Assembly (NCBI GenBank): GCA_001972305.1
Contig: BDDD01000266.1
Coordinates: 337,467-401,466 of the forward strand
Reading direction: 5' to 3'
From: Cephalotus follicularis
Lineage: Eukaryota > Streptophyta > Magnoliopsida > Oxalidales > Cephalotaceae
Length of the DNA stretch: 64,000 nucleotides
Of the stretch, positions 5,466-58,599 are shown one piece after another; within the stretch, counting starts at the first letter, position 1; each line of letters opens with the position of its first letter. The notes beneath the pieces are model-generated. The model worked only from the letters and a program-made list of their open reading frames with translations. It was not told where the DNA came from and did not search any database. The translations under genes and the position numbers were made by a program.

Positions 5466-5976
5466 GTCGACGCGATGAGTATGCGTTAACGCCTATGTCT
5501 AGTTGGGCAGCTTGACGTTGATGAGAAGGGATTACGTTAACACTGGAAAAACCAGTAGATTTGCATGTCGACGCCAAGAGGGCATCACGTCGACCTCTAA
5601 ACCTGAAAGTCCACTGGACGTTAACGCTATAGAGAGCATTGCGTTAACATTGGAAAAACAAGGGACTTTGAGCGTTGACCCCATGGGGTTTTGGCGTTGA
5701 CAAAAAGACAAATGGACTAGGTGCCTATGTTATCTTATCCATGGCGTTCACGCCTAGATGAGATGTACGTGACGACTCCTTGTTTGTGGGTTGACGCTTG
5801 ATGCGCGCTACAGTAGGAGAGAGAAAGTCAGCACTATAAATAGTTTGAGAGAAACTTGCTGAACACACTCCAACTCTTTCTTTCTCTCCATTCCCTCCCA
5901 TGCGATCTCTTCTACATGCTCTCGTGCACGTCGACATCTATCGCCTACGTGTCAATGCCTGTGTCACCTAGTGCGT
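5466..5976 (+). repeat. Phased GTCGAC-type palindrome array in Cop-A LTR
   Basis: Hexamers GTCGAC, GTTAAC, GTTGAC and one-base variants start at 5466, 5485, 5517, 5536, 5567, 5589, 5620, 5643, 5674, 5696, 5746 and 5790. The intervals are 19, 32, 19, 31, 22, 31, 23, 31, 22, 50 and 44. This alternates about 2 and 3 helical turns. Most sites are extended by GC on both sides, as in GCGTCGACGC. Isolated further sites lie past the TATA-like box, near 5932 and 5970. Confidence 0.85.
5835..5843 (+). promoter_or_regulatory. TATA-like box in Cop-A LTR
   Basis: TATAAATAG lies directly downstream of the main palindrome array and about 25-45 bp upstream of a CT-rich stretch. That is the expected arrangement at the U3/R border of an LTR promoter. 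Activity is inferred only. Confidence 0.55.
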
Positions 5977-6225
5977 TAACGCAGCCATTTCCAAGCCTCC
6001 TTTCACCACTCAAACATCATAATTGGTGGAGATAACTTGCACACATCTTCTTATCTTTACCTAGAGTGATTTAGACTAGGTTTAAACACTTGGCCTTCAT
6101 CCTCCTCTTACGTCGCTTGAGGATTCGCTTGGAGAAGCTTGGGTTTTTGAGGACAAAGAATAGAGAGAGCTATCTTGAAGGAATGAGTCTTCACCTCCAG
6201 TAAGAATCCGTTTCTTCCCTCTCTT

Positions 6226-6574
6226 GTGATGCCATGGCAGTGGGTGTTGATGTAGGTGTGTGAACCTTTGCCAAACCTCCATGGTTCTCTTCCTTTGTTT
6301 TGTGTAACATCCCATAGGGTTAGGGATGTTGTGGGTGAGGGTTGATTGGGCTATGGCTAGGGTTTTGTGTGTTTTCCTTGTGAGCCATTGTTAGAGTCCT
6401 TTCTAGAGTTTATGGCAACCCTAGCTTTATCAACCTGTTGTACCCAATAATTGCTTTTTGGTTTCGGTTTAATTGGATGTCGATTAGATGTTCCTTGGCA
6501 TTTATTCGGACCTTTTGGACTTAGCTTAGGGAATCCCTTTGCTTGGGGATTAACCATTTGAGAGAATTTTAAAG
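6226..6574 (-). other. Gyp-D 3' untranslated stretch
   Basis: This stretch has no gene. It follows the Gyp-D coding end and matches 54838-55175 in reverse complement, including the segments around TTAATCCCCAAGCAAAG and GAACCATGGAGGTTTGGC. A purine-rich run on the minus strand near 6215-6230 could be the polypurine tract. The matching LTR is not visible beyond it, where Cop-A LTR sequence begins. Confidence 0.6.
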
Positions 6575-7900
6575 TTAATCAACCCTCAATCCCCAAGTCC
6601 GAATTGTAAAGTCTTCCGCTGCGGTCGGGCCGCGAGCTCCCAATAGCTCCCACGTAGCTTCCTCTGCTACATGGTTCCTCCACAAGACCTTCAACAACGG
6701 GATGGTGTTGTTCCGCAGCACATGTTCTCGGCGATCCAGAATTTGTTCTGGGGCTTCCTCATAAGCCAAAACTGGTAAATCCTCCTCGGACAACACAATT
6801 GGGTCAAGCAACACATGGGAAGGATCAACAACGTATTTCCTCAACACGGATACATGGAGCACATCATGCACACTGGCTAACTCTGAAGGCAATGCCAGAA
6901 ATTAAGCCACTGGCCCGATCCTCTACACGATCTCCAAGGGACCTATGTACCTCAAGCTAAGCTTACCACGCTTACCAAAATGAACAATTCTCGTGTATGG
7001 TGATACTCTGAGGAACACCTTATCACCTACCGAGAACTCCAAGTCCTTACGGAGTTTGTCTGCATAGCTCTTCTGCCTACTCTGAGCCACGCTCAGACGA
7101 TCTCGGATCACCTTTACCTTCTCTGCTGCATCTCGGACCAACTCTAGTCCCAACAACTGGTGGTCTCCCACTTCATTACAACATAAGGGGGTTCGACAAC
7201 GTCTGCCATACAAAGCTTCATAAGGAGCCATACCTATGCTCGCTTGATAGATGTTGTTGTAGGCGAACTCGATCAAGGTCAAGTGGTGATCAAAACTCCC
7301 TCAGAAATCCAAAACACAAGCTCTCAACATGTCCTCAAGAATCTGGATAGCACGCTCAGACTACCCATCACTCTGAGGATGGTACACTGTACAGAGTCGC
7401 AACTCCGTACCCAACGTCCTCTGCGAACTCTGCCAGAACCTCAAAGTGAACCTCGAATCCCTGTCCGAAACTATGCTGCTGGGAATCCCATGTAACCTGA
7501 TCACACCATCCATATACAACCAAGCAAACTTGTCCAAACTAAAGTCCTTCCTTATCGGCAAGAAGTGAGCAAACTTGGTCAGACGATCAACAGTCACCCA
7601 GATAGCATCATGCTTACTCCTTGTCCGAGGAAAGCATGCGACAAAGTCTATTGATATGTTGTCCCATTTTCACTCTGGGATAGGAAGCGGTTGGAGAAGT
7701 CCTGGAGGCTTCTGTCGCTCAGCTTTCAGCTGCTGGCAAATTAAGCATCTTTCCACAAACCTGGCAATCTCATGCGTCATGCCTTGCCACCAAAAGGATT
7801 TCCTTAGGTCATGATACATCTTGGTACTTCCAGGATGCATCGACCAAGGAGAATGATGAGCTTCCTCCAAAATCTATTGCTTGATCGTCTCAACATGTGG
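6575..7900 (-). pseudogene. Gyp-D integrase and C-terminal region remnant
   Basis: Motifs in minus-strand order: the zinc region [20 protein letters not shown] and CLICQQLKAERQKPPGLLQP, the core motif VDRLTKFAHFLPI, YHPQSDG, and [20 protein letters not shown] with ALYGRRCRTPLC. The C-terminal part shows GDKVFLRVSPY and RYIGPLEIV, then VLHVSVLRKYVVDPSHVL. It ends with VLWRNHVAEEATWE, a chromodomain-like end typical of gypsy chromovirus integrases. It is a fossil. Confidence 0.85.
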
Positions 7901-14430: not shown

Positions 14431-14481
14431 GTAAACCCCATGGAAAAGATGAAACAGGCACTGAGTCTCATTTGTCTTCGC

Positions 14482-14698
14482 GTCAATGCCTAAAACCCAT
14501 ACCGTCAATGCATAAACCTACTGGTTTTTAAATCATCAAAGCCATGCTCTCAATAGCGTTAACGCCCAATAGATTTTCTTATTATGGCGTCGACGCATGC
14601 TCTCCTTGGCGTTGATGTTTAAAGCTACTAGTTTTATCAGCGTCAATGCAAGACATTCGCGTCAACGCCCAGCAACTCAACTAGACATGACGTCGACG
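14482..14698 (-). repeat. Phased GTCGAC-type palindrome array in Cop-B
   Basis: Hexamer starts on the plus strand are 14482, 14504, 14558, 14589, 14611, 14642, 14661 and 14692. The intervals are 22, 54, 31, 22, 31, 19 and 31. The 54 equals one missing site in a 22+31 rhythm. The array is collinear with that of Cop-A, but many sites differ in sequence. The spacing is therefore better kept than the letters. Confidence 0.85.
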
Positions 14699-16754
14699 CA
14701 TGCTCTTCATGGTGTCTCGCCTAAGACAAAGATGATACAATCTCTTCTATTTTCAAAACCCTTCGCATGGAATATTGCATCATGGCATTGCATGGACCTA
14801 AATCCATCAAATGAAATACTCACTAGCAAAACAACATCTTCCCTCATGTTGCCCTTGTACTAAATGATATGTGTCCCACCACATATCAACCTGTTCAAAG
14901 TCAGGCAGGACCCGAAAGCCTGTCATTCTCTGGTATGATGATAATTCCCAGAACATCCCGTTATCTGGTATGACCACTCTAATTGTACACCGACTATCAG
15001 AGCAGCCCCAATGTGAGCGCTAGTTAGCCCCCAGATCTGTGTATTACCACATCTATCAATCATGGTCCAAATAGCCAGTTGCTTTATCCAGTCATCGACA
15101 TATGTGTCATGTTTCCCTCGTCATACTTGGCTCTGATGACAGCCTAGGGTTTGGATGAATGTCACCCCTAGTATTGCTGTGATAGCTATGAATCTATGAT
15201 CGCACTAAGACTATCGGTAGACCTCCCATGAGAACCTCTTGTTCCCATTCCACCTATGCCTGACAAGGACTTTTAAGTCTACAACGTAAATAGATAAATA
15301 GAGCCGGTCACCGTCAGCCCGGGTGTGACAATCCACTATTGCTCACTAGCCCATACATCTCAAAGCTACTCCCAGAAGACCCAAAGACAACCTTTTTGCC
15401 AGCAGCTGACTAGTGTTGAGGAAGGCAGAAATCAAAGTCAAGCAGTCACCACACAATGCATGTCAGCCGCTCAGGTCAAAAGAGACAACGCATGATATAG
15501 AACTACTGGTCAACCATAGACTATACACTACCAAGACCATAGGAATCCTATTGACATTAGGTATTGGCTATCTAAATAGGTTTCCTATTGGTGGGTCTGT
15601 TCAGTGTCTGGCTCTCTAGCATACATGTAGCGCCCCCCATCCGAGTCCGCTAATTTCTCAAAGCGAGCCTAGAGGAATCGGTGCGTTACGTGGGGTGAAA
15701 CATTAACCATCAAATCGTTTAATAATTTAACGATTCATTAACCATTAAATCTTCACTTAGAATTAAAACCTAACATCATTACTCATCGAAAACATCACAT
15801 CATAATTAATAGCTTCACAGGATCACAATATGCTTACATCTTTGAACATCAATTTTCAAAACATCATATTCTCATTATCGTGATCGTTTCTAATACCTTT
15901 ACATTTATACATCACTTAGCATATAACCTTACACAGTGGAAAAACATAAACTTATTACATCATAAAATAGTCATATTCGTTTCTCACCTTTACCATTAAC
16001 TTCTCATACTTTAAAGTATGTTCAATAACTTTTGATATCATTATCTTACATGAAAGCATCATAACCTATAGCATTCATTTCCTTACTTTAACATCTATAC
16101 ATCGTCTATCATAAAACGTTACACAGTGGAAAACATTAACGCATGACATTAAGCATAAAACTTCATAGCATAACATACTTCCTTTCGGATACTTCGTTTA
16201 CGAACTTCCTCTAAAGCTTGCAATTTTACGTTCGACGTCTCTTGGAAAATTATTTGAAAACAAGACATTGAAAGGAGTAAGCTCAAATAGCCCAGTTAGG
16301 GTCATAGTTGTAAAACGTCATTGAAATCCGTTGTTTTTGATAATCTTTATCAAAACGTTTGCATTGATACATTTCAAAACGTCATTGAAAATCATCTTCT
16401 AGTTTTATAAAACTAGAACATTTCCAAAATCATTCTTTTGCTGGTATATAGCCCAGCCATACTTGAAAACGTCATTAAAATCATTTTCTGGTATATTATG
16501 TAAAATCATAGCATTTCACATTCATTTCCTTTTTCTGATCATATCACATGAATCAGAACATGTTATAAAAACTTAATGAACCCTTTTACACCTCTTCACC
16601 GGGGCATTGTGCACTCCCCGATTACTATCCTTACATCACATGCATGTCCGTGACCATCTCGCTCCATTAAAATTAATCCATCTCAGATTCATTCCCCTTG
16701 GATCGCAATCCAAGTGTGGTTCATTTCATCATTTCATAAAACATTACTTAATAC

Positions 16755-16922
16755 TTTGAGTGATCAGCTCAAAGCATTTATAAAACATTTCTCTTCATTT
16801 GAGTAGTTAACTCAAATGCATTCATAAAACATTTCTCTTCATTTGAGTAGTTACCTCAAATGCATTCATAAAACATTTCTCTTCATTTGAGTAGTTAACT
16901 CAAATGCATTCATAAAATCATT
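16755..16922 (+). repeat. 44-bp tandem repeats with hairpin core in Gyp-S
   Basis: Three direct units start at 16791, 16835 and 16879, with a shorter degenerate unit before them. Each unit contains the dyad TTTGAGTAGTTAACTCAAA (one copy differs at one base), which could form a stem of about seven base pairs. The unit length was counted as 44 bp. Confidence 0.85.
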
Positions 16923-17803
16923 TCATAAAACATTTATAAAATAGCCTTGTACAACATTTCTAAAACTAGTTTCTCATGTAGAAACATTCATTTCATTTCC
17001 TTTCACAATTCATAAAGCATTTTCATCACATACTTCAACTCAAAACATTCATAAAACAACTTTGCATAACATTTCTAAATCTTGAATTTCATATAGAAAT
17101 AAACACCTTCAGACAAAACTTAAAACATAAACATTAAAGTAGACATCTTCACAAATTCAGAAAGCTCAAGTTCATAAAATTTTATTGAGCATCAAATCCG
17201 ATATAAATTTTTAAAGTGACTGGTTCCATATGAACACAAGACATGAGCAATAAAATGAAACATGGATTCTCGTCAAGAATTCGACAGAATTTTGATAAGC
17301 ATAAAACATGTCTGTTGAAGAAGACATCTTGAAGTTTCTAAAACATTAAATCATTCAAAATTTCATCACGAAACGAGCAAGATATGAATAAAACAATCTG
17401 TTGCATAATTGGGAAGTAAAACAAAGGAATAACTTGTCATGAAAGAGTTTGATTTTCCTTACCTTACTTTAATCTCCTTCTCTCATTCTCTCCTATGAAT
17501 TATCCCAGCCAAACCCACCAGGAAAACAACCATTCTTAAGCTGAGAATGTACACATATATATATATAAAAGAGAGACTTGGAGAGTAAGCTTGCATAGTG
17601 AGTCATCATGACATCACCCATGTGAGTTTGTCCCCTAGTTGACCATGTGATGGAATTCCTCCATCCAAATGAGGCCACATGCCTCTTTTTATCAAAATAT
17701 CTTAAGTCCTCACTTCTTTGCTTGACATGTGACCCTCTATAAAGATAATTAACTCACAAAAGGACAAACAGTTAGATTTTGTAGCTGATCTGCTGGTTTG
17801 GGC

Positions 17804-18160
17804 GTCAACGCTTACGAATGGGATTGATGTCTATACTCTTTACACGTTAACTCCATTAGCTCTTCGTGTTGACATCTTATGTTGTAGGCCAAAAAGTGCA
17901 CTCATTCGCGTTGACGTCTAAACATGACGTTGATGCCTTCCGGTTTGATGTTGACACTATGAAGGTTTCACGTTAACGTCTACATCCGCTGTCCGAAATT
18001 GTGCCTCGTGGCGTTGACGTCTTTCCCAAAGGCGTTGACACGTATATGCAATCCCCAGCACGTCGATGATAAAAAGCATCACGTCGATGAGAATCATCTT
18101 GAAATGCCTAGAACCTGTGCTCAAACCCAACACGTTGATGTATATAACATAGGCGTTGAA
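17804..18160 (-). repeat. Phased GTCGAC-type palindrome array in Gyp-S
   Basis: Hexamer starts are 17804, 17823, 17846, 17868, 17910, 17929, 17950, 17972, 18013, 18033, 18062, 18083, 18134 and 18154. The intervals are 19, 23, 22, 42, 19, 21, 22, 41, 20, 29, 21, 51 and 20. Most sites are decayed forms (GTTGAC, GTTAAC, GTTGAT). All intervals fall near 2, 3, 4 or 5 helical turns. Confidence 0.8.
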
Positions 18161-18344
18161 GCCAAAAAGACTGTTCTGTATATTTTGCCTGTTTTGATCC
18201 TACTATTTTGCTTGTATGTTTTGCTTAAGCATTCCTTTACACAAAGAACAAGTTATGTTCTTTCAAAGTCCAGATTACAAGGCAAACAACATATTCCTCA
18301 GCATATAATAAACAAATTTCCAGTCCAAAACAAATAGACAAATA

Positions 18345-18470
18345 CGATTTTCTTCTGGGGGCGCTGCCCTCGAGCCCCTGCCTGCTGTCCAGCCAGCGGG
18401 ACCCCCCGTCCGCTCACCGGGGAGTGGAACCCCCAAACCCCTTGAGCGTTAGGGTCATAACATAGGTCCC
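18345..18470 (-). repeat. GC-rich hairpin-prone block in Gyp-S
   Basis: This is a sharply GC-rich island in AT-rich surroundings. It contains GGGGGCGCTGCCC and a CCCCGGTGAGCGG-type segment on the minus strand, with several short inverted repeats. A shorter relative lies in Cop-C at about 61010-61095 and again at about 62180-62262. In all cases it follows the LTR tip that begins TGTAATGA. Confidence 0.65.
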
Positions 18471-21534: not shown

Positions 21535-21678
21535 TGTTAGCTCCTATGTTACAATCTTGGTTTTGATGATAACAAAACACCTAACTTGTTTGTTGATGTG
21601 AAGGATTGTTTAAATGAAACATAAAAAATAAAGTTGCATGTGAAAAACAAGCAAAATATGCAGAATAGACCTATTGGC

Positions 21679-22152
21679 GTCAACACCTAGATCATTGGTG
21701 TCATCGCGCTGGGTTTAAGCATGTGTTCTGGGCTTTGGAATATGATATTCGTCAACGTGCTGATTATTTTCATCAACGTTCTAGGTTTTGTAATATTGGC
21801 GTCAACGCCATAATGAAGACATCAATGCCAACAGGTGCAAAAATCGGACAGTGACTTAGATGTTAACGTGAAGACATATTAGCGTCAACACCTATGAGGA
21901 AGACGTCAAGGCTATAGTTAGACGTCAACACTATAGTTAGACGTCAATACAAAAGAGTGCAAAAATCTTAAAGTGACTTATTTAACGCAGAAGGAGAATG
22001 GAGTCAACACAAAGGATATTCGCGTCAATGCCATGAGTACACGTTAACACGAATAAAGCAAAAATCAGACAGTAGCTAATGGAGTCAACGCAAAGAACCA
22101 AAGGAGTTAACGAATAAGGACATAGACGTCAATGCCATGCGTAAGCGTCGAC
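21679..22152 (+). repeat. Phased GTCGAC-type palindrome array in Cop-E LTR
   Basis: Sites (mostly GTCAAC, GTTAAC, ATCAAC) start at 21679, 21700, 21751, 21772, 21801, 21821, 21862, 21884, 21905, 21924, 21943, 22003, 22024, 22043, 22084, 22106, 22128 and 22147. Intervals are 21, 51, 21, 29, 20, 41, 22, 21, 19, 19, 60, 21, 19, 41, 22, 22 and 19. The array ends about 120 bp upstream of a TATA-like box. Confidence 0.82.
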
Positions 22153-22273
22153 ACCCAAGAAAGCCAGACAGAAAAATCTACAAGATTTGAAGGTGCTAAA
22201 ATGGGGATAACTTTTCGTACATAAATCCAACGACTCTTTGATGATTACAACGGCTATATGACTACAAGAAGCA

Positions 22274-23105: not shown

Positions 23106-23238
23106 TGAAGCTTACAAACCCTAATTATGAGAATGTTGAGTTTTTGAACCCAAAAGAAGCTTACAAACCCTAATTATGGTTTTGGAAATGGAAAGTGTAT
23201 GTCAAAAGCTTGAAACGGCATTGTTTTGGGACAAAGAC

Positions 23239-23381
23239 ATCGACGTCTTTGGAAACACGTCGAGGCCTTTGGAGACAGAGGTACAGGTGAATGCATGGGC
23301 ATGCACATCGACGTGGAGAGAAGGCATCGACACCTTCTTACAAAATGGAAAAGACATCGACGTCTAAGGAAAGACGTCGAC
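23239..23381 (+). repeat. Palindrome cluster 1 in Gyp-F 5' LTR
   Basis: Sites start at 23239, 23259, 23307, 23326, 23356 and 23376, with intervals of 20, 48, 19, 30 and 20. Arms often extend to a perfect AAAGACGTCGACGTCTTT-like palindrome. The same cluster recurs in the 3' LTR at about 30750-30895. Confidence 0.85.
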
Positions 23382-24139
23382 GCCTTTGTAAAGAATGTGT
23401 GTCGTGCTTTTTCGCTGGTAGAGTAACATGCAATGGGATCTTTGGGGGCTTTACCAGATGCCTTTACAAGTGCATGGTGACGAATGGATCATGATGGGGT
23501 GTTGCCTGGCATGCTCCAAACCTGCTCTCGCATGGAACATGCAAGGAATTATGCCATCCTAACATGCAACCTACAAAAGGAAGGTTAAAGAAAACAAAAG
23601 AAATGCAGAAAGAAGGAAAGTGGGAGAGAGCACGAAAGTGGCCATTATATGTAAGGGAAAGAATGTTAGGGGAGCCATCTGCATAAGGATAAACCTCCCC
23701 ACTTCTCTCTCTCGTTTTAAAACACCAGAAGAAAGGGAAGAAAGAAAACAGTGAGTGTGAAAGCCACCATTGTTGAGTTTGCTTGGAGCTTGAGATTGGA
23801 GCTTGTGGCCAGCAGTTGCTGAGGGAACTTGGAGCTGCTGGTGGCCAGAACTTGGGAAGTTAAAGGGGTGGACTTTCCAGTTCCTAACTTGGAACAATAA
23901 GGTAGGGGAAATTGATGTATTTATACATGCATTTTGGGTTCTAAGTTAATGGATAACATGGTGAATTGCATGTTAATGATTTAATTGTGATTCTGGACTT
24001 GTTGTAGTGTTACTGGGATACACTGAGTTAATTATGCATGTACAATTACATGAATATGTGAGTTTATTGTGTAAAGGCTGGATTGATAGTGGCTTGGTAT
24101 ATTGAAACTGTGGAAAAGGACGTTCTGGGCTGTGAAGAC

Positions 24140-24473
24140 ATCGACGCCTAAGTAAAGACGTCGATGCCTTCGTGGGAATATGTGAAAGACATCGATGTCT
24201 TTTTATTGACATCGACGCCTTTTCTGGGAAGCCGTTGAAATGCAATGTTCATTTCGGATGGCCATTTTAGCCACTTGGGAATCACCTGTTTGATTTCGAT
24301 TTGATGTTCTGGTTATGTTGCTGTTAACCAGTAGCATTCCTTACACGTTTAGAGAGTGATATTCAATTACATGAGGGATTAATAGGTCGGATTTCACCCT
24401 CCCGAATCAAAACTCGCGTATTGATACTCTCTGGTATGATAAAGACGTCGACGCCTTAGGGATAGACATCGAC
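24140..24473 (+). repeat. Palindrome clusters 2 and 3 in Gyp-F 5' LTR
   Basis: Cluster 2 has sites at 24140, 24160, 24191 and 24211 (intervals 20, 31, 20). Cluster 3 has 24447 and 24468 (interval 21). Both recur in the 3' LTR at about 31650-31735 and 31957-31990. About 240 bp without sites separate them. Confidence 0.85.
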
Positions 24474-24969
24474 GCCTTTTCCCCTGATCAGTAGAATTTC
24501 GCTTGAATGGGACCTGTTAGACCCAAAATGACTCTAGGAACGAACCTAGATGCATTCTGAGCATATGTTTGCATTGTTACTGTGATTTGCATTATGGTTG
24601 CTTTCCTGAAATTGTTAAACCATTTTGAAAAACTTGCATGATTATTATGATCATTTGGGTACGAAAATGTATAATTGTCAACATATAAATTTATATATTT
24701 TCGAAATGTCTGGGGAAGTATTTCCAATGACAGATAAATGTTTTAAAGGTTTGATTATGAAACCAAATGTAATTTGCGAAAATGTATAATTTATGAATGT
24801 ATACGTTTTCGAAATAATTGGGGAAGTATTTCCAAAGATAGAGAAATGTATTAATTTAAGTTTATAACTTATTACAACTTGCGAACAGAATAATATATTT
24901 TAAATAAATATATTTGATCAAGTAATTATATGTAACTGCTTGACTTGTACTGTGAAATGCTTGTGCTTG

Positions 24970-25083
24970 TTGATTATTAGCCACCGTGCTAATAACTTGT
25001 TGATTATTAGCCACCGTGCTAATAACTTGTTGATTACTTAGCCACTGTGCTAGTAACTTGCTGTTGGTTTAGCCGCCATGCTA
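24970..25083 (+). repeat. ~30-bp tandem units in Gyp-F 5' LTR
   Basis: Three to four units share TTAGCCACCGTGCTAATAAC and a TTGTTGATTA link. Each holds an inverted pair TTAGC...GCTAA. The 3' LTR has the same set at about 32478-32597. Confidence 0.8.
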
Positions 25084-30573: not shown

Positions 30574-33311
30574 TGTAACGCCCGGTATTTTCCTGGATGT
30601 AATGTTTCGATTTATGATGTAATCTTAAACTTGGATTAATGAGAATGTTGAGTTTTTGAACCCAAAAGATGCTTACAAACCCTAATTATGGTTTTGGAAA
30701 TGGAAAGTGTATGTCAAAAGCTTGAAACGGCACTGTTTTGGGACAACGACATCGACGGCTTTCGAAAGACGTCGACGTCTTTGGAGATAGAGGTACACGT
30801 GAATGCATGGGCATGCACGTCGACATGGAGAGAAGGCATCGACACCTTCTTACAAAATAGAAAATACATCGACGTCTAAGGAAAGACGTCAATGCCTTTG
30901 TAAAGAATGTATGTCGTGCTTTTTCACTGGCAGAGTAACATGCAATGGGATCTTTGGGGGCTTTACCAGATGCCTTTACAAGTGCGTGGTGACGAATGGA
31001 TCATGATGGGGTGTTGCCTAGCATGCTCCAAACCTGCCCTCACATGGAACATGCAAGGAATTATGCCATCCTAACATGCAACCTGCAAAAGGAAGGTTAA
31101 AGAAAACCAAAGAAATGCAGAAAGAAGGAAAGTGGGAGAGAGCATGAAAGTGGCCATTATATGTAAGGGAAAGAATGTTAGGGGGGACCATCTGCATAAG
31201 GATAAACCTCCCCACTTCTCTCTCTCATTTTAAAACACCAGAAGAAAGGGAAGAAAGAAAACAGTGAGTGTGAAAGCCACCATTGTTGAGTTTGCTTGGA
31301 GCTTGAGATTGGAGCTCGTGGGTAGCAGTTGTTGAGGGAACTTGGAGCTGCTGGTTGCCAGAACTTGGGAACTTAAAGGGGTGGACTTTCTAGTTCCTAA
31401 CTTGGAACAATAAGGTAGGGGAAAGTGATGGATTTATACATGCATTTTGGGTTCTAAGTTAATGGATAACATGGTGAATTGCATGTTAATGAGTTAATTG
31501 TGATTCTGGACTTGTTGTAGTGTTACTGGGATACACTGAGTTAATTATGCATGTATAATTACATGAATATGTGAGTTGATCGTGTAAAGGATGGATTGAT
31601 AATGGCTTAGTATATTGAAACTGTGGAAAAGGACGTTCTGGCTTAGGAAGACATCGACGCCTAAGTAAAGACGTCGATGCCTTCATGGAAATAGGTGAAA
31701 GACATCGATGTCTTTTTATTGACATCGACGCCTTTGCTGGGAAACCGTTGAACTGCAATGTTCATTTCAGATGGCCATTTTAGCCACTTGGGAATCACCT
31801 GTTTGATTTCGATTTGATGTTCTGGTTATGTTGTTGTTAACCAGTAGCATTCCTTACATGTTTAGAGAGTGATATTCGATTACATGAGGGATTAATAGGT
31901 CGGATTTCACCCTCCCGAATCAAAACTCGCGTATTGATACTCTCTGGTATGATAAAGACGTCGACGCCTTAGGGATAGACATCGACGCCTTTTCCCCTGA
32001 TCAGTAGAATTTTGGTTGAATGGGACCCGTTAGACCCGAAACGACTCTAGGAACGAACCTAGATGCATTCTGAGCATATGTTTGCATTGTTACTGTGATT
32101 TGCATTATGGTTGCTTTCCTGAAAGTGTTAAACCACTTTGAAAAACTTGCATGATTATTATGATCATTTGGGTACGAAAATGTATAATTGTCAACATATA
32201 AATTTATATATTTTCGAAATGTCTGGGGAAGTTTTTCCAATGACAGATAAATGTTTTAAAGGTTTGATTATCAAACCAAATGTAATTTGCGAAAATGTAT
32301 AATTTATGAATGTATACGTTTTCGAAATAATTGGGGAAGTATTTCCAAAGACAGAGAAATGTACTGTTTTAAGTTTATAACTTATTACAACTTGTGAACA
32401 GAATAATATATTTTAAACAAATATATTTGATTAAGTAATTATATGTAACTGCTTGACTTGTACTGTGAAATGCTTGTGCTTGTTGATTATTAGCCACCGT
32501 GCTAATAACTTGTTGATTATTAGCCACCGTGTTAATAACTTGTTGATTACTTAGCCACTGTGCTAGTAACTTGTTGTTGGTTTAGCCGCCATGCTAAACA
32601 ACTTACTGAGGACTTACTACAAAACCGTTCGCACACGAGGATGGTGTAAGAGTGCATGACGTTGGGGCCAGGAGGTGGCGACGGTCATGACAATTGGCTT
32701 GTCTGGTTCCTTTTTTGGGAACATATTTACTGCTTGTGTTGATATAACTTATGAGTTATACTTGTACTGTGAGCATGCATATATTTTTTTATATGTACAT
32801 ACGGAAGTATACTTGTTGTGAAAATTACGTGTCATGGCTCATCATTATGCATTCATTCATGATACTCATTATCAAATGACTCGAACTGTATTTATGGGTT
32901 TATTCACTTAGCCGAGTGAGGACAAAGGCTAACCCCTACTGTAACAGATTGATGGAGTGGACATGAGATGGAGCACGCATGGGGACTTAGACAGAAGACT
33001 TGTTATCTCTCTTATTTATGTTTTTGGGTTATTGAACATTGATCATGTTGTTCAGTTTTGTAACAAATGATATTTTGTTATCTCGTATTGTATTATTTAA
33101 CGCTCCGTTTTGGGCGATCGACAGTTATGTTTGGATTTTGGGCATCACGTAGTATGGGATGCGTGATGCGTGTTTATTTTTTGGCTCATTTACGTTATTG
33201 CTTCCGCTATTGAAGGTTTTATTTATTGGTATTTTGCATGAGCTGGATTATTTCATGTTGATTGCCTTACCACATTATGTGTTGTCTTGCTGTGGAAGAC
33301 GGGGTGTGACA
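30574..33311 (+). repeat. Gyp-F 3' LTR
   Basis: The 2738-bp LTR runs from TGTAACGCCCGG to GGGGTGTGACA. It repeats every feature of the 5' LTR: palindrome clusters near 30750-30895, 31650-31735 and 31957-31990, and the TTAGCC...GCTAA units at 32478-32597. At 30765-30782 it holds a perfect 18-bp palindrome, AAAGACGTCGACGTCTTT. No coding region is present. Confidence 0.92.
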
Positions 33312-33901: not shown

Positions 33902-34096
33902 TGTAACGTCCGGGATTTTCATATGTTGTAATTTCATGATGCAAATGTACATTTATTGTGGAATTAATAAAATGATGTATTTCCCAACCTTGATGATGTT
34001 TTCCAAACTCTAATAATATTTATTTTGGAAAGGGGATGTCAAAGAAATGTTAAAGCAATTGTTAAGTCAAAAACGGCGCAGTTTTGGGCTAAACAC

Positions 34097-34239
34097 GTCT
34101 ACGACTTAAGGAAAGCGTCGACGCCTATGGGGACAAAGGGCGCACGTAAGTGCATGCACATGCATGTCGATGCAGGAGAGAACATCGATGCCCTCGTGTA
34201 AAAAGGGAAAATACGTCGACGTCTAAAGAAGACGTCGAT
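34097..34239 (+). repeat. Palindrome cluster 1 in Gyp-K
   Basis: Sites start at 34097, 34117, 34166, 34184, 34215 and 34234. The intervals of 20, 49, 18, 31 and 19 nearly copy the spacing of Gyp-F cluster 1 (20, 48, 19, 30, 20). Confidence 0.85.
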
Positions 34240-35504
34240 GCGTAACATCGAATGTCAGGCACGTTATTTTGTAGACCGAATAACGTGCAAAGGGAAACGA
34301 TTTAGGGCCTTTTGCAGACACCTTGAGGCACCAAATGGGACATGTTAAGCATGCATATGACTCCCTGACCTGTATGACTGAAGTTGTGAGGGTAAGGGTG
34401 ACACATGTGATAGCATGCAACAAGTGCAAAGAGCAGAGGGACATGTGTGCGTGCAATTGACGATTAGATGGAGTGTGGCATTATCTGGCGTTAGAGCTGA
34501 GACAAGGGCTGAGAAATGAGTTCAGCTATTGCATGCAAGGGTGGGAAGTGTCCTAGACACATGTGACCTGCAAAAATGCAGAGAAAGAAGAGAACAAAAA
34601 CGGGAAAAGGGAAAAGAACAGGTGTGTGGGTGTGAGAGTGCATTCATGGTAGGGGGGGAGAAAGAGAAGTGAACCATCAGCTTAAAAGCACCTTCTCCTT
34701 CACCTCTTGTAACGCCCCAAACCCCAAGGGTTAACCCCCAAGGTTTGACGCGCTAATAGCAGTATCATGCATTACCCAATAATCAACGGAAATTAAAAAC
34801 TTTTAATATAATAATGCATGTGGAATAAATCTAATTAAATATCATTTGTGTGGATAAACCCGAAGTTATACAATATTGTTCGTAAAAGCTCTGCCACAAG
34901 CCGGCAGGTCATAAAACAAAAATACAATTTATTTATACTCCTGTGTCGTTGAACTGCAATAAGAGGGAGGAGACTCACCCGGGGCTTCAATCTTCAGCTT
35001 GCATGCGAAGCTCCTCCTGTACCTGACCCATTACATTAAATGCAATGGGTCAGCGACCACTGGTCGTGTAGGAACTACAACCCACTCATGCATAGAGATG
35101 CATATGTAGTAGGCAGTATGCAATGCAATGAGATGCAATAATAACAGTACAGCATAACACTTCATTCATTCCATATCAGTCCTTAACATTCATTAACAGT
35201 CACTAACAGTCATTCACAATCATTAACTACCATAATAAATCCTTCATCGGCATCCCCTACTAAAGGAGTAGTAATAACGCACTCTAGACGTTAAGGCATA
35301 GGAGCCGGGACAGGAATAATCATTACATTTTAGGCAGACCCATTCCTCGGATTCCTCGGCTTTAGGAAGAGTAATATACGCGCTGTAGGCGATATAGGTA
35401 GAGGAGAGGAACATAAATATTATACAGTATCAGTAACGGTCATTCAGTACACTATACAGTAATAATAACAGTAACAGTAACCGTAACAGTCCGTGTGGCT
35501 CATC

Positions 35505-35668: not shown

Positions 35669-35671
35669 TAC

Positions 35672-44876: not shown

Positions 44877-44881
44877 ACGTC

Positions 44882-46470: not shown

Positions 46471-47609
46471 TCAGGAGGTATACACGTTAGTTTTCCTGGA
46501 ACACGTCCGGGTATTCACTAATTATCGGGATAGCCTGTAATTTTGGTATTCATCTGCCACTGTCCATAACATGTGTCAGGCAAGTATTACAACTTTACCT
46601 TAAGAGTCTATGAGTCTTCATGGTAGACATTATTTTGTTCAGATACCGTTCCAAGGCTGCAACGGAGACTGTTCTAGCACATTGAAGGTCACACCTTCCT
46701 GTCTCAATCCATGCATGCATTGCGTGCAAGTAGCCCATCATTCCATAATCATTTCCATGACCATACAATCCGTAATCATTCAATTCATTCATCCATTCAA
46801 TGACGGTCCATTCAATAACAATCCCTTCATTCTTAGTCCACTCAGTCTCATTCCAATATCTTAACAATCTATTGGGAATCTAGAAGCTGACTAGGTATAT
46901 GTCATCCCATACCACACAGTTTAGGTCCACTCAGTAATAATCCGTAACAATTCAATACGATAAAGTTTAGGCCCACTTAACTTTCTGCTGGAAATCTAAA
47001 AACTGACTAAGTATGTATATCGTCCAATCAATCATTCAATCATTCACTTAGTCATACATTCAATCATTCATTATGCAGTCATAAATTCAATCCTTCACTC
47101 AGTCAATCCATTATGCAAGCAGTCATTCACTCAAATACTCATTGGCTAGTCCCCGAGGGTTCTACCTTAGGGTCCATTAATCCATTCACTCAGTCAATCA
47201 TTTAATCAGCCAATCATCATTCGATAAATTTCGTTCTGTCAAACACTTATGCTTTTAGGTCCAATTGATCAATCACTTATTCATTCCGGTCCATACAGTA
47301 GGTCACTTATCCATTTCAGTTCATTCTATCAATCACTTGTCCATTTCACACGAAATGGACCTCGCTACCATTTCAGCCTCTTTGGCTACATTCACTCCTT
47401 ATGCATCTCTACTTGCTCGAGTATGTCAAATAAACGTCTCGGCTCTCGCTCCTCGTGCAGTTTCACTTCGACGACCTTCAAATTTCACTTTTTGTATAAA
47501 TCCAAGGGGTTAATATCCACTTATCTTGTCCGCATGCAATAACTTTATTAGCCAAGGACTTCTTACTGGTGTATCCAGAATAGGAGAACCATGTCTCTGA
47601 TACAAAGTT
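46471..47609 (-). other. Gyp-G 5' internal region, CATTCA-rich
   Basis: This should hold gag and the leader, but no gag motif survives clearly. From about 46730 to 47345 the plus strand is dominated by CATTCA, TCATTCA and CAATCA words, a degenerate simple-sequence domain. A primer-binding-like site (minus strand TTTGTATCAGAGA) lies at 47594-47606 next to the 5' LTR. Confidence 0.55.
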
Positions 47610-50600: not shown

Positions 50601-50662
50601 CCCAGAATACTATTTAAGGTCCAAAAGGCCATTCTTTTATATTATAAATTCCAGATATTACA
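47610..50662 (-). repeat. Gyp-G 5' LTR
   Basis: About 3.05 kb, matching the left copy throughout, including the GGTGATC array (about 48395-48568), the simple repeat near 48570-48635 and the GC-rich block (48885-49995). It lies next to the primer-binding site, so it is the 5' LTR of this minus-strand element. The right edge is exact because of the CCTCT duplication. Confidence 0.88.
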
Positions 50663-50667
50663 CCTCT

Positions 50668-52683
50668 GTCCTGCTGAAACACGTGTGAAATGAGAAAGGT
50701 GTGAAACCAGTGAGTTTCAAGAGAAGCCAGCGAGAGAAGGAAAGGAAATCTCCACCATTGTGGAGCATCTTGGAACTTGAAGCTCGTAGGGTGGCAACTC
50801 TGGACGAACCTTGGAGCTGCTGTGGCCGGTTCTAGGACTTAACGAGGTGGACTTTCTAGTTCCTAACTTGAAACAAAGAGGTAGGGGAAGCCATAATCGT
50901 AATTATGAGCTTAATATTAATGAAGGGAAAATGGTTTTTGTGCATAGTTTCCAAGGTTATTGAATTTTTTTTTATCACAAGATCAATGCTATGTTATGCT
51001 GGGTATGTGATATGTATCTGAATGTTGGTTTTCTGGCTTGAGTACATGTTGTCTTGCATGTATATGGACTGTGTTGATTACTGTTTGTCACATCGTGAGG
51101 AAGAAGACGATTGGTGCTCGAAACACGTCGATGCCTTTGAGGAACATCGACGCCTTTTGGATATCTGCTTGGATATTGATCTATTATACGTCGACGCCTA
51201 AGGTTTGTAACTTAACGCGTCGACGCCTTAAGCAATACGCTGACATTTAAGGTTCCATAACTTGAGCGTCGATGCGTATAAGTTGGACATCGACGTCTTT
51301 GAATAGTGGAAAGCACTGACGGTAAGGACTTGAGCGTCAACGCTTATGGGACAAAGACATCGACACCTAATGATAGACATCGACGCCTTCTTGTACTGTT
51401 TGGAAGTTTTCTTAATTAATAATACGAAACGATCCCAACTCCTGTTAGGATTATTTGAGCATTTATATGCATTGCATATACACTGTTTACTGCCTGTTTA
51501 TTGACTGTCTATAAATCGTTTATGATTTCTAAGTTATGATGTTTAGAAATGCATATGTGAACTCGGAATACACTATTTGAGTATGAAATTATATAATGGT
51601 TAATAACGTATTTTCAAACAAATTGGGAAAGCGATTTTCACTACTAAATTGTTTAAAGTATTTTCTATCTATTAGAAATACATATTTCAAATGTTATCAC
51701 TTTCAAAAATGGTTTGAAATAAATTGCATGTTGTTGATCTAACGATTATTACTGTACTGTTTACTGTGAGTATTCACTGTTTGCTCTGTGAATTGACTGT
51801 GTTTGTGCTTGAGTCACTAGTTGCGTGGCAAAGTCTGCCAGTGTTGGCTAGTGGCAGGGTTGACCTAGGATCCAGGAGTTGGCTGGGTAACTCACTGTAC
51901 TGTACTGTTGTCTTGCTTGGTTGCTTGGAGAAGGGACCGAAGTGGGAGTGCAACATGGGACAAGGAGTTGGCGGCGTTGTACATATTGCCTGCCTATTGT
52001 TAGGCCCTTTATGGACAGATTGTACTATTTACTGGTCCTATTCGGACATTACTGTGCCTGTTGATGTAGCCCTGGCCAGGCTACTACTGTACTTTTATTG
52101 CATACATATATTTTCATATTTATGCCCCTATTGTTATTTTACTGTACTTCTAACTTATATATATTTTCATATATATATATATATGTATATAAACTGGTAT
52201 TTTCTACTGCACTGCATCATCTATGCATACATTTCATGACATGCATGTAATATTGGTCCCAAAGTACTCTTATGACTTAGCCGAGTGAGGACAAAGGATA
52301 ACCCCCTACTTTACAGATTGATGCAGTGGATCAGCTTGGGAATCAGCATGGATGAAGTACAAGTTTTTAATAATGTTTTCATCAGGGGTTATGTCCCTTT
52401 GTGTGTTATGTATCGTATTTTCCGATTTACTCGACTTTTGGATGTCACTGATTAATGTATTATGGATCACGCTCCATTTTGTGGGCTTTTGACAATGACA
52501 GACTTCTATTGAGTAGCGTGCAGTATGGGATGCATGTTACGTGGTTTCAGCTTATGAGTTTAATGCTTCCGCAATTGATATCTTATTTGAAAAGTTTAAA
52601 TTTTATGGTATTTGCATAAGCTGAATCTTAATGTTAATTGCCTTTACCACCTTATGTGTGTTTATCGAAAGCGGGGTGTGACA
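50668..52683 (+). repeat. Gyp-K second part, with palindrome cluster
   Basis: This continues the Gyp-K LTR to GGGGTGTGACA. GTCGAC-type sites lie between about 51127 and 51390 (51127, 51146, 51190, 51219, then around 51238, 51268 and 51289). TACTGT words are frequent at about 51480-52130, and an AT dinucleotide run lies near 52169-52186. A 171-codon hydrophobic open frame at 51724-52239 has no known relative and looks like chance. Confidence 0.85.
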
Positions 52684-53198: not shown

Positions 53199-55175
53199 TG
53201 TAATGACCCAGGTCCAATTTGGGTATTGGACTTTGTATGTTTTGGGCCTTAGAATTTTTTTTCCTTTTGGATAAGAGGAGTTTGGGCCTTGGTTTTGTTT
53301 GTCTTTGGTGTTGTTGGCCTCCTTCATTTTGGTGCGTTGGAGTTGGTATGAGCTTGTGTTGGTGGCAGGTCCATATTGTCAAGCACACGACCATCTCATG
53401 TTAAGGCAGTAAGGAGCTGTTGTAGTAGTTATTGGTTCCAGAAGTGAGTAGTCGTGAGAAGTGTAAGTTCGTTGTGCTTTCCTTCTTCCTTCTGAAGTTC
53501 TCCTCTGGCGAGGACGAGTTTTGCTTGGAGAACGAGATCCTCGCGTTTGTAGAGGTGAGCTCTTCGTTTCTTCATCTTCTTTCCTATGTTCATTTGGCAA
53601 TGTGCGTGCCAACCTCCAGTTTACAGTGAAGGCAGAGATGGTGATGGTGATCGTGGTGCTCCATGGTGGAATGTTGAGTTGGTGGATGGTCAGGGAGACT
53701 ATCCGAGGAGCGATCATGCATGTAGGCCATATGCATGTTTTCCCTCTATTTTCGTTGCAGACTATGCTAAGTCTGTGTTCTTCGTTCTTGTAGCTGAGGA
53801 ATCTAACGTTGATCCTGAGCTATAGGAAGAGGTGCGGTGGAGAGCGGATAAGTGGTGAGTGGGACATTCCTTCTTTATTCTTGAAACAGTTGAGAGTCTT
53901 AAGCTTAACGTGTGTCTTCAGGTTTTATGTTATTCCTTCCACGGTGTCTTTGTTCTGGGAGTCATTTCTTCCTTTTTTTGACATATTCTTTTCAGATGAT
54001 ACTGATTTTCGAGCTGGTGAGCTTGCGGTTCTGGGTGATATTTCCCCTTGTTTATCCTGTTTATATATGTCATAACTTTTCCTTGATACCATGTGTTGTT
54101 TTGTATGGATACTGGATACTGGGGACCATGGTGACTGATGGTATGTTTCTATGGGATTCCCGGTGAGAGATGGTCTATGCGGTGATTCGCTGACCTTCCA
54201 ATCGATGTTCACATACATGATTGCTGACGAGGGTGGTACCTTGCGGTGATTCGTTGGCCCCTCAGTTGATTTTCGCGATCTGCTTGCCTCCCAGGGGTTG
54301 GGTTCGACACTGATCAGTTGGCACCTCTGGTGGAAGGCCAAGACTTGTGGCTCTCTGTATCGATACATGGCAGGGGGTGCACTCCCTGCAAGCCCATGAT
54401 CTTCTTCTCCAGTCAGGGACTATTGAGATTTGCTATCGTGAAACTCGGCGCCCACAGATGTATGGAATGGCCGAGGTGGTTTTTGGTAATGTGACAGGTT
54501 CCAGTAGTCCTCTGATCAGTTGATCCCTAGACTTTTTGATCCTTAGGTTTGGGCCCTCGGGAAATTGGGTTTGAACACCTTGCTTTACTTCTATCTCTCA
54601 TACTACCGTTTCATAGCATTGTTGATATATTTATCTTTTGCTAGCTTTGTATACTCCAAGTTGTCTTTCGATCCTTGTTGAGTATCCTCAGATGGTGAGC
54701 CAAGGAACGTTGTTTGGCCAGTTGGGCATAACCTTTTGCTCATCATCCAGTGTTGTTGGACATTAAGGAATGCTTTCTCTATTGGGAGCGCACGGCCCGA
54801 GCGTCGCGGAAGACTTTTCAATTCAGGCATAATTTAGGGTCGATTAACTTTAAAATTTTGTCAAATGGTTAATCCCCAAGCAAAGTGATGCCCTAAGCTA
54901 AGTCCAAAAGGTCCCAATAAATGCCAAGGAATATCTAATGAACATCCAATTAAACTGAAACCAAACATCATGCATCGGGCACAACGGGTTGATAAAGCTA
55001 GGGTTGTCATAAACCCTAGAAAGGACTCTAACAATGACTCACAAGGAAAACACACAAAACCCTAGCCATTTCCCATTCAACCCTCACTCACAATATCCCT
55101 AACCTAAGGGATGTTACACAAAACAAAGCAAGAGAACCATGGAGGTTTGGCAAGGGTTCACACACCCATATCAAC
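53199..55175 (+). mobile_element. Gyp-D-like remnant (plus strand)
   Basis: It starts TGTAATGACCC, like a gypsy LTR, and has phrases such as GCGGTGATTCG in common with the Gyp-D LTR. At about 54740-54835 it carries the end of a gypsy coding region, matching the end of Gyp-D around GGGAGC and CGGAAGACTTT. The Gyp-D-type 3' untranslated stretch follows to 55175, where Cop-C is inserted. The element is broken and incomplete. Confidence 0.65.
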
Positions 55176-57366
55176 TGTTAGATATAGTGACCCGACAAGC
55201 CATTAGATGGGTTGTCATATTATATCTTATCTTGTATGAAACAATCTTATTCCTTGTATATATATATATGATGCGTGCTAAAATTTATTATGGCTATATC
55301 ACTTGTGTTTTATCACTTAATTGAAGTAGTTTATTATTTACCTGCTTACAGTTGTGATGCCCTGACATAAGGTTGGATGCCTAGCATGGAGGCTGTGAGA
55401 TTGGTTACCTTATTCCTTATGTCAAATTAGTTCCAAGTCATAGGTTCACTTTGTGGGCATTAGTGAACCGGATAGACTTGTACGTATGTTGCCTGCTCAT
55501 GCAATTGGAGGATGGATTCTCTCACTACCATCTGTGTTGGACATTAGGGCAAATATGGGGTACGCGCTGGGAGCATGTACACTGAACAGGACCCGCGTAG
55601 GAGACACTATTTGGATAGTTGCTATTCTCATGTCAGTAGTGACCCCTACTTGTTGCGGTTGTGTATAAGTGATCATCACTTAGCGAGTTCTTTAACTCGT
55701 CTGATCCTTAGAGCTGAGCGACTACTCTATATTGTATGGAGACGGTTATGCATTGATCTCCATCTTACCCAGTCCTTACACAGGGCTGGAAATCAGGAGG
55801 TCTTTGGGTATGATCGAATCTATACGAATATAAGTGAGTGCGCAATATGGGATTGTCACACCTGAGCGAAGGTGATCGTCTCTATTGTGGTCTGATTATA
55901 CTTTGGACTTATGAAATCCTTGGCCAAGGTTGAGGTAGACTGGAAATTAGATTTTCAGAAAGTTTACCAAACTTCCTAGTAATGATCAGATATTTTAGCC
56001 ATTGAGGTATCATCTAGGGTTGACACATATCCTTACCCTAAACCTTAATCGGGGCCAAGCATGACAAGGGATTATAGTACACGTGAACCAACGACTCAGG
56101 GAATCTAGGGTTAATGAGGTGTGTAATAAATTATGGGACAATTAATTATATTAATTTTTTCTTATGGATAATATTAGATATTATTCTGAGAGCATTTAAA
56201 TGGTTTGGGATCATTTAGAATGACTAAACCGAACCCTAGGGGTATTTCGGTAATTTATGAACACCTCTTATTTTAATCAAGATTTTAAAGGGTCCCTGCC
56301 TTATAATGATTAGATCTTCAATGTGTTAGACATATTAAGTCTTGGTGTCAAATATCGGTTATGTGGATTTGGCATTTTGTGGAAACACATATGTTTGATC
56401 TTACTTAATCAATATTGAAAAGGTACATGAGATCACTAAAAGAGTTAGACTCTTAATGCTTCACTAGCCAGACAAAGACGTCGATATCTTTTAGAAAGTC
56501 GTCGATGCTTAATGTTTTTAAAGACGTTGATGTCTTTTAGAAAGCATCGATGTCTTTAGTGTCACATTACATGGACGTCGATGTCTTTTGGAAGGCGTCG
56601 ACGTCTTTGAGCAGGACGTGCGGCCTGCGCACGACCTCACATCATGGACACGTTTTCTCTCACATCTTCAACCAGTTTCTCATAATTTTACACGTTTCAA
56701 AAACGTGGGAAGTGTGGCTTCGGACTCCCAGGGAGTGAGAACCATGATCCTAAGTGAATGGGAGATTGGGAGAGAGAAAATGGGACTAGATATAAGCATT
56801 TTTCTGCAGAAAATAAGTGTGGAAGTTGAGCGCTTTGCTGCGCAAGGTGACTTCATGTTTCTCTCTGCAGATTGTGAGTGTTCTTTTGATTTGTAATACA
56901 CCAAGCAAGAACTTATCTAGGGTGGATTGATTTTGACTTCATCGGTCAATATCAATTTACTTTACCTAAGCTTAGAAAGAGTGTGAGAGAACTTTACTTC
57001 TTGGTGCTTGGAGCTTCAAGGTGATTCGACTTGGATCAGAAGCAGAACGCATTGGAAACTTTGGAAGGGAGTCTTCGCAAGCTTGGTGCGGCAAAGAAAG
57101 AAGGAGCCATCACCGTGTGGTAATGAACTTCTAGTCTTTCCTTTGTAGTCTTTTGTGTTTGTGTCACTTTTGGTTTTCATTGGTGACACTAATTCAATCA
57201 ATGTGATGATATGGTGATCCATATGGTCTGTGGACATCCCATAATGGATTGTTTTATTTTAATTGGGTTTTTTTCCGCTGCCATGTTTGTATGTTTTGTT
57301 TTGTTTTACACCCAACACACCATTGTCCATATATGGCATTAGATTCGGTTTTGTCCGTTTCTATCA
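55176..57366 (+). repeat. Cop-C 5' LTR
   Basis: It runs from TGTTAGATATAG to CTATCA, directly before the primer-binding site, at 2191 bp. Parts resemble the Cop-A LTR, for example TTCCAAGTCATAGGTTCACTTT. A palindrome array at 56480-56602 lies about 190 bp upstream of a TATA-like TATAAG at 56791. The region 56645-57160 is the source type for the LTR pieces at 61104-61624 and 62271-62876. Confidence 0.85.
56480..56602 (+). repeat. Palindrome array in Cop-C LTR
   Basis: Sites start at 56480, 56501, 56526, 56546, 56577 and 56597, with intervals of 21, 25, 20, 31 and 20. Arms extend toward AAAGACGTCGATGTCTTT, as in Gyp-F, although the LTRs are otherwise unrelated. Confidence 0.82.
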
Positions 57367-57378
57367 TGGTATTAGAGC
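57367..57378 (+). other. Cop-C primer-binding site
   Basis: TGGTATTAGAGC immediately follows the LTR end. It is one base from the initiator Met-tRNA complement TGGTATCAGAGC. Confidence 0.85.
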
Positions 57379-58599
57379 GTCCCACATCATCCTTTATTGA
57401 ATATATATGCCTTAGATGATGTACTGATTAATGGTTTAATTATTGGATATGTTTTATGATCAAACTAAATTTTCAAAGTGCCTTAATGAAAATTGCATGA
57501 AATTGGATTTCATTGTGTTTTTGGTGCTGGGAATGATGTTTTAATGTGTTTAGAATTATGTTTGGAACATGCATAGTGCATTTTAGAATGCTAGAATGGT
57601 ATACCATACTCTAAACCATTGATTTCTGCATTTTTGAAAGTGCAGAAACTGCCCAGGGGGCTATAGACGTCGACGTTCTTGGTAGAGTCGATGTCTTGTT
57701 CATATTCCCAGGAAACACGTCGACGTTCTTGATAGACGTCGATGTCTTGTTCGTTTCCCAGAAAACGCGACGATGTTGTTGATAAACGTCAACGCCTTTT
57801 TCCAACTATTCATGAGAAAGGCATTGATGCTCCTATTATGCATCGACGCCTTGTTCATGTGTTTCCAGAAAATACGTCGATGTTGTTGATAAGCGTCGAC
57901 GTCTTTTAAAAAAAAAAACTGTTTTTAATAAAATTGGATTTTATACATTATGGCACTTAGAAAATCAAATATCATTGCTTGATTTGGTGGGAGTTTGATC
58001 AATTAACAGTCCTTGAATTAAATTGAGTAATTGGTTATTATTTATGGCATTTGTTTTGTGGTTTTATTATATTGGATATAATATAGATCTTATGCACAAT
58101 GGATGGCCCGAAAAGGACATTGACCTAGATTATTGTTTTCTATGTGTGGATGGATTTTATTTATTTATTATCTTTAAAGGTCTGTAATAAGGTTCCTGCG
58201 TGCACCATTTATTTTTTCCCTTACTTTTATTATTTCTCCTTGTAATTTTTAAATGTATTTTTCCTTTTGAAAATGTAATGTTCTTTTTGTAAAAGAAGAT
58301 CATGCAAGAAGAGATTGAGGAAAGGAGAAACGAAGTACAAGATTTTTGAAGGCCATGAATGCATGGTTATTGATGTAATAAATAGAATTAAATCTTTACA
58401 CCTAGGAAGACCTAGTAGTGACTTTGGGCTCAAGTCATTACTAATATTGTCCTGGCCAATCCATTGACACATTTTAGAAATATGTCCAAGGTGCATAAGA
58501 TACACGTCTTGCATGATAAGCCGTAATTAATTTGAATTGGATAATAAAACCAATGAATTAATTAATGGCTCGGTATTTAAAATTTGAGACCGCAAATTC
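57379..58599 (+). other. Cop-C leader, with a palindrome array
   Basis: This is a gene-free stretch between the primer-binding site and gag. It holds a GTCGAC-type array at 57669-57900, outside the LTR. The part after about 58088 resembles segment J at 22803-23105 and 33312. It is AT-rich, with no other feature seen. Confidence 0.65.
57669..57900 (+). repeat. Palindrome array in Cop-C leader
   Basis: Sites start at 57669, 57687, 57719, 57738, 57767, 57788, 57823, 57842, 57876 and 57895. Intervals are 18, 32, 19, 29, 21, 35, 19, 34 and 19. The paired rhythm of about 20 and about 31-35 matches the LTR arrays, but this one lies downstream of the primer-binding site. Confidence 0.82.

Follow-up and report, generated by a model that had tools for sequence, protein, structure and literature searches.

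Why would retrotransposons of unrelated lineages within one plant genome carry arrays of the same short palindrome in their long terminal repeats (LTRs)? The question arises from a window of 64,000 nucleotides of Cephalotus follicularis (contig BDDD01000266.1, positions 337,467 to 401,466; all coordinates below are those of the window), whose elements read as plant-like DNA dense with nested LTR retrotransposons, and for which a preliminary description had claimed that six otherwise unrelated copia and gypsy families share helically phased arrays of a palindrome centred on GTCGAC. The arrays themselves are real, and one palindrome type spans copia and gypsy elements, although in three lineages rather than six families. 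Their best explanation, to which a probability of about one half can be given, is that they are palindromic cis-regulatory boxes for a predicted dimeric host factor, located in LTRs and leaders and multiplied by tandem duplication.

Among the 64 six-base palindromes, GTCGAC is the most over-represented in the window (36 observed versus 5.8 expected from dinucleotides), and GACGTC ranks second (32 versus 5.8). Sites were defined by the pattern RCGTCGACGY, with CpG transitions permitted and at least one CG retained; the window contains 86 of them, compared with 4.3 +/- 2.2 in 40 first-order Markov simulations, and they group into twelve clusters (4-10 sites each), three pairs and six singles, while no pair of sites within 150 bp of each other occurred in any of the 40 simulations. 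Eighty of the 86 sites lie inside ten LTR or leader intervals totalling 17,228 of the 64,000 bases, some bounds of which are approximate and were drawn once the arrays were known. A looser, graded scorer (background of 0.69 sites per shuffled 500 bp) gives 6-17 sites per array region in twelve regions (Table 1). The LTR of another family in the same window (D, 47609-50662, 3,054 bp) has no RCGTCGACGY-type site, and the arrays are therefore a property of certain families.

The boxes are carried by a copia lineage (A and W/X), by a second, distant copia lineage (S) and by a chromodomain gypsy lineage (T and U/V), while a fourth family (C) carries a palindrome of its own, CAGTCGACTG, which differs from the RCGTCGACGY type, in two related LTRs of opposite orientation. 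The six unrelated families were rejected in favour of three lineages that share a box type, with C as a separate family having its own, because several LTRs are related: A1 (5464) and A2 (14480) belong to a single family in inverted orientation (82.6% identity), A is related to W (64% over 764 bp) and S1 (17802) to S2 (21677) (70.8%), and U and V are the two halves of a single T-related solo LTR (33902-52683, target duplication CTAAA), separated by a nested gypsy element (34708-50662, target duplication CCTCT). The pieces of reverse transcriptase and integrase available from S and from A-type copia are 28-34% identical, which makes them distant lineages. T1 and T2 are the 96.4% identical LTR pair of one gypsy element (23.1-33.3 kb) with Retrotrans_gag, RVP_2, RVT_1, RNase H, Integrase_H2C2 and Chromo domains, the Chromo match, at 25.1 bits with a cut-off of 25.1, placing it among the chromoviruses; we take its lineage to be Tekay/Del. 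The array at 56.5-57.9 kb belongs, contrary to its earlier assignment, to a copia element (primer-binding site, PBS, near 57367; gag open reading frame, ORF, from 58759), the matching of the earlier family names to arrays being a guess. Across lineages no LTR alignment was obtained at E 1e-5 among nine pieces compared on the plus strand with X left out; the proposed lack of LTR similarity holds between lineages but not within them.

Each lineage has its own box consensus (A, gGCGTTGACGCc; S, GgCGTCAACGCc; T, AAAGACATCGACGCCTT; U/V, ACGTCGACGCCT; W/X, aCGTCGATGTCTTT), with a core of the form CGTYRACG, CATCGACG or CGTCGATG. At the centre, 22 of the 30 boxes of S have CA (one has TG) and 8 of the 20 boxes of A have TG (one has CA), counts that are not independent, as S1 and S2, like A1 and A2, are related copies that share history. 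Because the centres are biased in orientation, random decay of a symmetric site is unlikely, and random CpG decay was rejected as the origin of all the variants: many of the sites that had been called decayed forms are oriented family consensuses. Among five tests of the sequence flanking the core, T alone shows symmetry above chance (p 0.025; one of ten tests overall).

Table 1. Palindrome arrays of the window and the number of RCGTCGACGY-type sites that the graded scorer finds in each.
Array	Coordinates	Strand	Boxes	Graded sites	Setting
A1	5464..5797	+	12, GGCGTTGACGCC-like	15	copia 3' LTR ~4159-6245 (bounds approximate)
A2	14480..14699	-	8	8	copy of A1 family LTR, split by an insertion
S1	17802..18162	-	13, GGCGTCAACGCC-like	13	inverted LTR, relative of S2
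S2	21677..22154	+	17	17	copia LTR starting at 21535 after the polypurine tract (PPT) AGGGGGAG
T1a	23237..23383	+	6, AAAGACRTCGACGYCTTT-like	6	gypsy 5' LTR, to 25798, left end damaged
T1b	24138..24475	+	6 clear in two groups, 1 weak	7	same LTR as T1a
T2a	30749..30895	+	6	6	gypsy 3' LTR 30574-33311
T2b	31651..31988	+	6 clear, 1 weak	7	gypsy 3' LTR
U	34095..34241	+	6	6	left half (33902-34707) of T-related solo LTR
C1	39144..39308	-	7, CAGTCGACTG-type	0	solo LTR 37422-40482, target duplication CTTTA
C2	43322..43487	+	8, CAGTCGACTG-type	0	LTR ~42180-44876
V	51125..51386	+	10	10	right half (50663-52683) of the solo LTR of U
W	56478..56604	+	6	6	copia 5' LTR ~55176-57362
X	57667..57902	+	10	10	leader (PBS to gag) of the copia element of W; in part a 50-bp tandem repeat

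The spacing of the boxes is far from uniform. A non-redundant set of 62 gaps (A2, S1, T2 and U omitted as homologous copies, C uncounted, and gaps of 140 and 209 bp dropped) comprises 35 of 18-23 bp, 3 of 24-28 bp, 12 of 29-32 bp, 2 of 33-40 bp and 10 of 41-60 bp. When C2 is included, 13 of the 18 gaps between 24 and 40 bp fall at 29-32 bp (post hoc binomial p 1.7e-5), and both the ~20-bp and the 29-32-bp class are present in all seven gap sets tested, including that of the different palindrome of C (C1 gaps, 20, 22, 49, 22, 22 and 20 bp; C2 gaps, 20, 21, 22, 29, 21, 21 and 21 bp). Phase coherence peaks in the 10-10.8 bp band in eight of nine arrays (T1a favours 9-9.8 bp), with a mean of 0.78 compared with at most 0.51 in five other bands, and with all gaps jittered, six of the nine arrays exceed the null at 10-11 bp (p < 0.05). 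Pooling of the nine arrays, with S1 and S2 both in, gives p 0.0016 for 31 gaps longer than 24 bp and p 0.036 for 14 gaps longer than 36 bp.

The text between boxes had been described as non-repeating, which does not hold within A1, A2 (long spacers), S2, W and X, where spacers are repeated, weakly so in V; no repetition was found within S1, T1 or U. The repeated spacers indicate that tandem duplication within families accounts for at least part of the growth of the arrays, some of which expanded by duplicating units of one or two boxes, although the similarity among W spacers may not reflect duplication, because the short ones are mostly AAAG/CTTT arms of a longer palindrome. Between families, none of 15 spacer comparisons survives correction, the lowest p values being those of T-X (0.025), T-W (0.03) and A-T (0.045).

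In A, S and W a TATA-like box follows the main array: CTATAAATAG at 5834, with the last upstream A1 box 37 bp before it; a TATA box at 22274 in the S2 LTR, 120 bp past the array; and ATATAAG at 56790, 186 bp downstream of array W. Each box would be bound by a dimeric host DNA-binding factor, and two or three helical turns between boxes would place neighbouring dimers on one face of the DNA, permitting cooperative binding that may drive transcription from the LTR or hold the LTR open. By exploiting one and the same host factor, unrelated elements of a single host may have converged on this box. The self-complementary boxes would also yield hairpin RNA, which the host could process to small RNAs, such foldback RNA probably being a by-product. 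Candidate binders would be WRKY proteins (W-box, TTGAC) or bZIP proteins (TGACG/GACGTC), neither of which was adopted, and no factor is named here, because by eye, with no motif library searched, no WRKY or bZIP half-site is common to all of the lineage consensuses. That distant copia lineages and a gypsy lineage with a chromodomain use one box within a single genome suggests a shared host factor, to which the array would give a direct handle; if this is confirmed genome-wide, host regulation rather than element ancestry would be seen to shape the control regions of LTRs. The more ambitious proposition, that a single host factor drove copia and gypsy elements independently to evolve the same box at two and three turns, as a host-wide 'LTR code', is possible, if doubtful.

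Several observations weigh against palindromic boxes serving a host factor, beginning with the scope of the data, which is one window of one plant. The ~20-bp class is the driver of phase coherence: non-redundant gaps longer than 24 bp have R 0.34 at 10.5 bp (p 0.044-0.060), gaps of this size fit a 15-bp period better than one of 10.5 bp, and the arrays selected for non-repeating spacers (S1, T1a, T1b, V and C2, a set in which the long spacers of V reach p 0.037 for similarity and those of C2 lie outside the similarity test) give p 0.10 with 13 gaps. When short gaps are kept constant, two of nine arrays stay below p 0.05, A1 (0.016) and S2 (0.022), and the other seven do not; since the spacers of A1 and S2 repeat internally, some of the regularity is attributable to descent by tandem duplication. 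Two-turn (~20 bp) plus three-turn (29-32 bp) spacing is a fair description of the arrays, phasing is marginal once the ~20-bp class is set aside, and the four and five turns of the preliminary description are not established.

Nor are the boxes clearly better conserved than the spacers in most comparisons: box and spacer identities are 0.717 and 0.750 between A copies (0.869 in the remaining LTR), 0.780 and 0.761 between T1a and U, and 0.950 and 0.950 between T1 and T2, and only S (0.778 and 0.688) favours the boxes, although CpG decay could mask their conservation. Compensatory change between the arms of the core was not found in any of the five lineage sets (p 0.19-0.58). Three further boxes of the A1 LTR (5928-5982) are downstream of the TATA box and X sits in a leader outside the LTR, so not every box is an upstream promoter element; in T (24684) and U/V (51509-51590) the only TATA-like matches, which are unverified, are downstream of the arrays. 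Finally, at E 1e-3 on both strands, cross-lineage matches appear between T1 and X (79% over 63 bp, inverted, E 5e-7), T and W (up to 91 bp) and S1 and U (28 bp, inverted), all restricted to the arrays, where they cover boxes and arms.

Such matches are what would be expected if template switching or recombination had passed the array from one lineage to another, after which the spacers diverged. The same core motif occurs in one genome, nested insertions bring LTRs together, and the three lowest spacer p values (0.025-0.045) all involve T, yet no LTR alignment extends between lineages, the matches span boxes and arms, and the box variant is specific to each lineage, which leaves module exchange decidedly unlikely. 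A neutral minisatellite, in which each LTR gained a palindrome that slippage or unequal exchange then multiplied, so that spacing is inherited unit length and nothing is bound, is also unlikely, though it would account for the repeated spacers and for the units reported by Tandem Repeats Finder (50 bp at 57667-57790 in X; 19 bp at 21879-21947 in S2), and it agrees with the faster divergence of the A array than of the flanking LTR. Head-to-tail repetition of whole units is seen in part of X and S2; S1, T1 and U lack spacer similarity, and that of W may be due to palindrome arms; neutral growth would leave unexplained why three unrelated lineages share a core and gap classes. The original interpretation, binding sites on one face of the helix rather than a decayed satellite, is partly supported.

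Folding raises another alternative, that the arrays act at the level of RNA, as foldback structures that are favoured or tolerated as precursors of small RNAs or as packaging or translation structures, the spacing setting only the sizes of loops. Nineteen of the 24 array strands fold more strongly than the 5th percentile (z -3.38) set by 64 background tiles, with z down to -10.2, and the palindrome clusters of maize Sireviruses, which resemble these arrays in folding strongly, are reported to be small-RNA hotspots (Bousios 2016, as cited in PMC5311732 and PMC10760457). Strong folding is nevertheless uninformative on a DNA versus an RNA role, because palindrome arrays fold by construction, and it is not extreme in five of the 24 strands (both of A2, both of S1 and the sense strand of S2); the core arms show no covariation, and the main arrays of A, S and W, being upstream of TATA-like boxes, may fall outside the 5' transcript. 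A function in RNA is on this evidence somewhat unlikely. That the sites serve an anti-silencing protein encoded by the elements themselves, like the VANC proteins of VANDAL transposons, is highly improbable: the targets of Arabidopsis VANCs are likewise tandem repeats of short motifs in noncoding transposable element DNA that contract and expand quickly (PMC10398659), but VANDALs are DNA transposons whose binders are element-encoded and sequence-specific to their own family, the word palindrome is nowhere in that text, and one core in three lineages would need a shared factor. In addition, the sense ORFs of at least 100 amino acids in the best-preserved carrier, the gypsy element at 23.1-33.3 kb, are gag-pol; antisense ORFs of that size exist in its LTR and internal region.

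Repeated transcription-factor boxes in LTRs have parallels in copia elements of the Tnt1/Tto1 type, in which cis-regulatory boxes are arranged in tandem in two or three copies, compared with 6-17 here; we know of no sharing of those boxes with gypsy elements. It had been thought that no system of the present kind was described, but the repeated-motif (RM) boxes of Sireviruses, multicopy palindromes that are family-specific and located in LTR CpG islands upstream of the TATA box in 13 elements, already are (Bousios et al. 2010, PMC2829016), and a Vitis Sirevirus motif among them, CGGTCGACCG, contains GTCGAC. These are the nearest described system, and the present arrays appear, by analogy, to be of that general kind: both consist of multicopy CpG-rich palindromes with family variants and with additional copies in noncoding DNA beyond the LTR, the CpG island averages 37 bp from the TATA box there and the last upstream box is at the same distance in A, and the RM threshold of at least 8 copies per element is reached here by A1 (12 + 3), S1 (13), S2 (17), T1 (13), U and V together (16) and W with X (6 + 10). 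There are differences as well. RM boxes are described, in the same source, as specific to Sireviruses, absent from classic copia elements and without a known binder, and 12 of the 13 published boxes have a CGG-CCG core (the exception is Tnd-1; PMC2829016 Table 3), whereas the cores here are RCGTCGACGY-like and lack CGG-CCG; the carriers here include a chromodomain gypsy element and a copia element (S2) without the multiple PPTs of Sireviruses; and two gap classes are prominent here, spacing not being discussed in the accessible text of PMC2829016.

Maize provides a precedent for a palindrome that crosses superfamily boundaries: CACCGGACNNNGTCCGGTG is the top motif in structured regions of both Copia and Helitron elements (PMC10760457), so that, as here, one palindrome is common to unrelated transposable element superfamilies of one genome; the superfamilies and the palindrome are different, and the portion of the article available contains no mention of gypsy and no analysis of spacing. 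The literature matches listed include neither an array of palindromes in gypsy elements nor a palindrome common to copia and gypsy elements, and the use of one box by both may be new. Relatives were also sought in viral and genome contigs (IMG/VR, GTDB) by five protein scans, which gave 3, 9, 41, 3 and 593 pattern matches, none confirmed by tblastn, such single-protein queries reaching close relatives only; one further scan of viral contigs gave zero matches. Fifty viral-contig loci were dismissed as chance, because 49 of them are GC-rich (0.55-0.73; L005, 0.32) and none matches any of the four window proteins tried.

The S2 element has one PPT, AGGGGGAG, at 21525, followed by ATTG and flanked by the inverted-repeat arms GTTTTGTCATCATCAAAA and TTTTGATGATAACAAAAC, the combination of PPT, AT/TG attachment site and flanking inverted repeat that is characteristic of Sireviruses. 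It is not classed as a Sirevirus, because it has a single exact PPT and a linker of 130 bp (measured from the pol stop at 21392-21394), in place of 3-5 exact copies and a long linker. Six exact copies of AGGGGGAG are present on the minus strand at 63511-63965, ahead of a copia 3' LTR (~62880-63508), and this, the only cluster of exact PPTs in the window, is the multi-PPT signature of Sireviruses; neither the site pattern nor the graded scorer detects an array in that LTR, which contains a 43-bp tandem repeat (63092-63221).

In the chromodomain gypsy element, both LTRs contain a 30-bp tandem repeat of about three copies (24966-25060 and 32479-32576) downstream of the boxes, and the insertion that splits the A2 LTR contains a 44-bp tandem repeat of 3.6 copies (16768-16924). 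Inverted copies of one sequence (6246-6646 and 54779-55175, 88.5% identical) adjoin the approximate ends of the A and W LTRs, possibly as two insertions at the same point of one target family. A block of about 145 bp, partly GC-rich and 75.5% shared, occurs in different element contexts at 18414-18557, 60932-61074 and 62099-62241. A direct duplication of 1173 bp (60458-61630 and 61625-62797), 100% identical, joins pol to a piece of LTR in a copia element and is either very recent or an assembly artefact.

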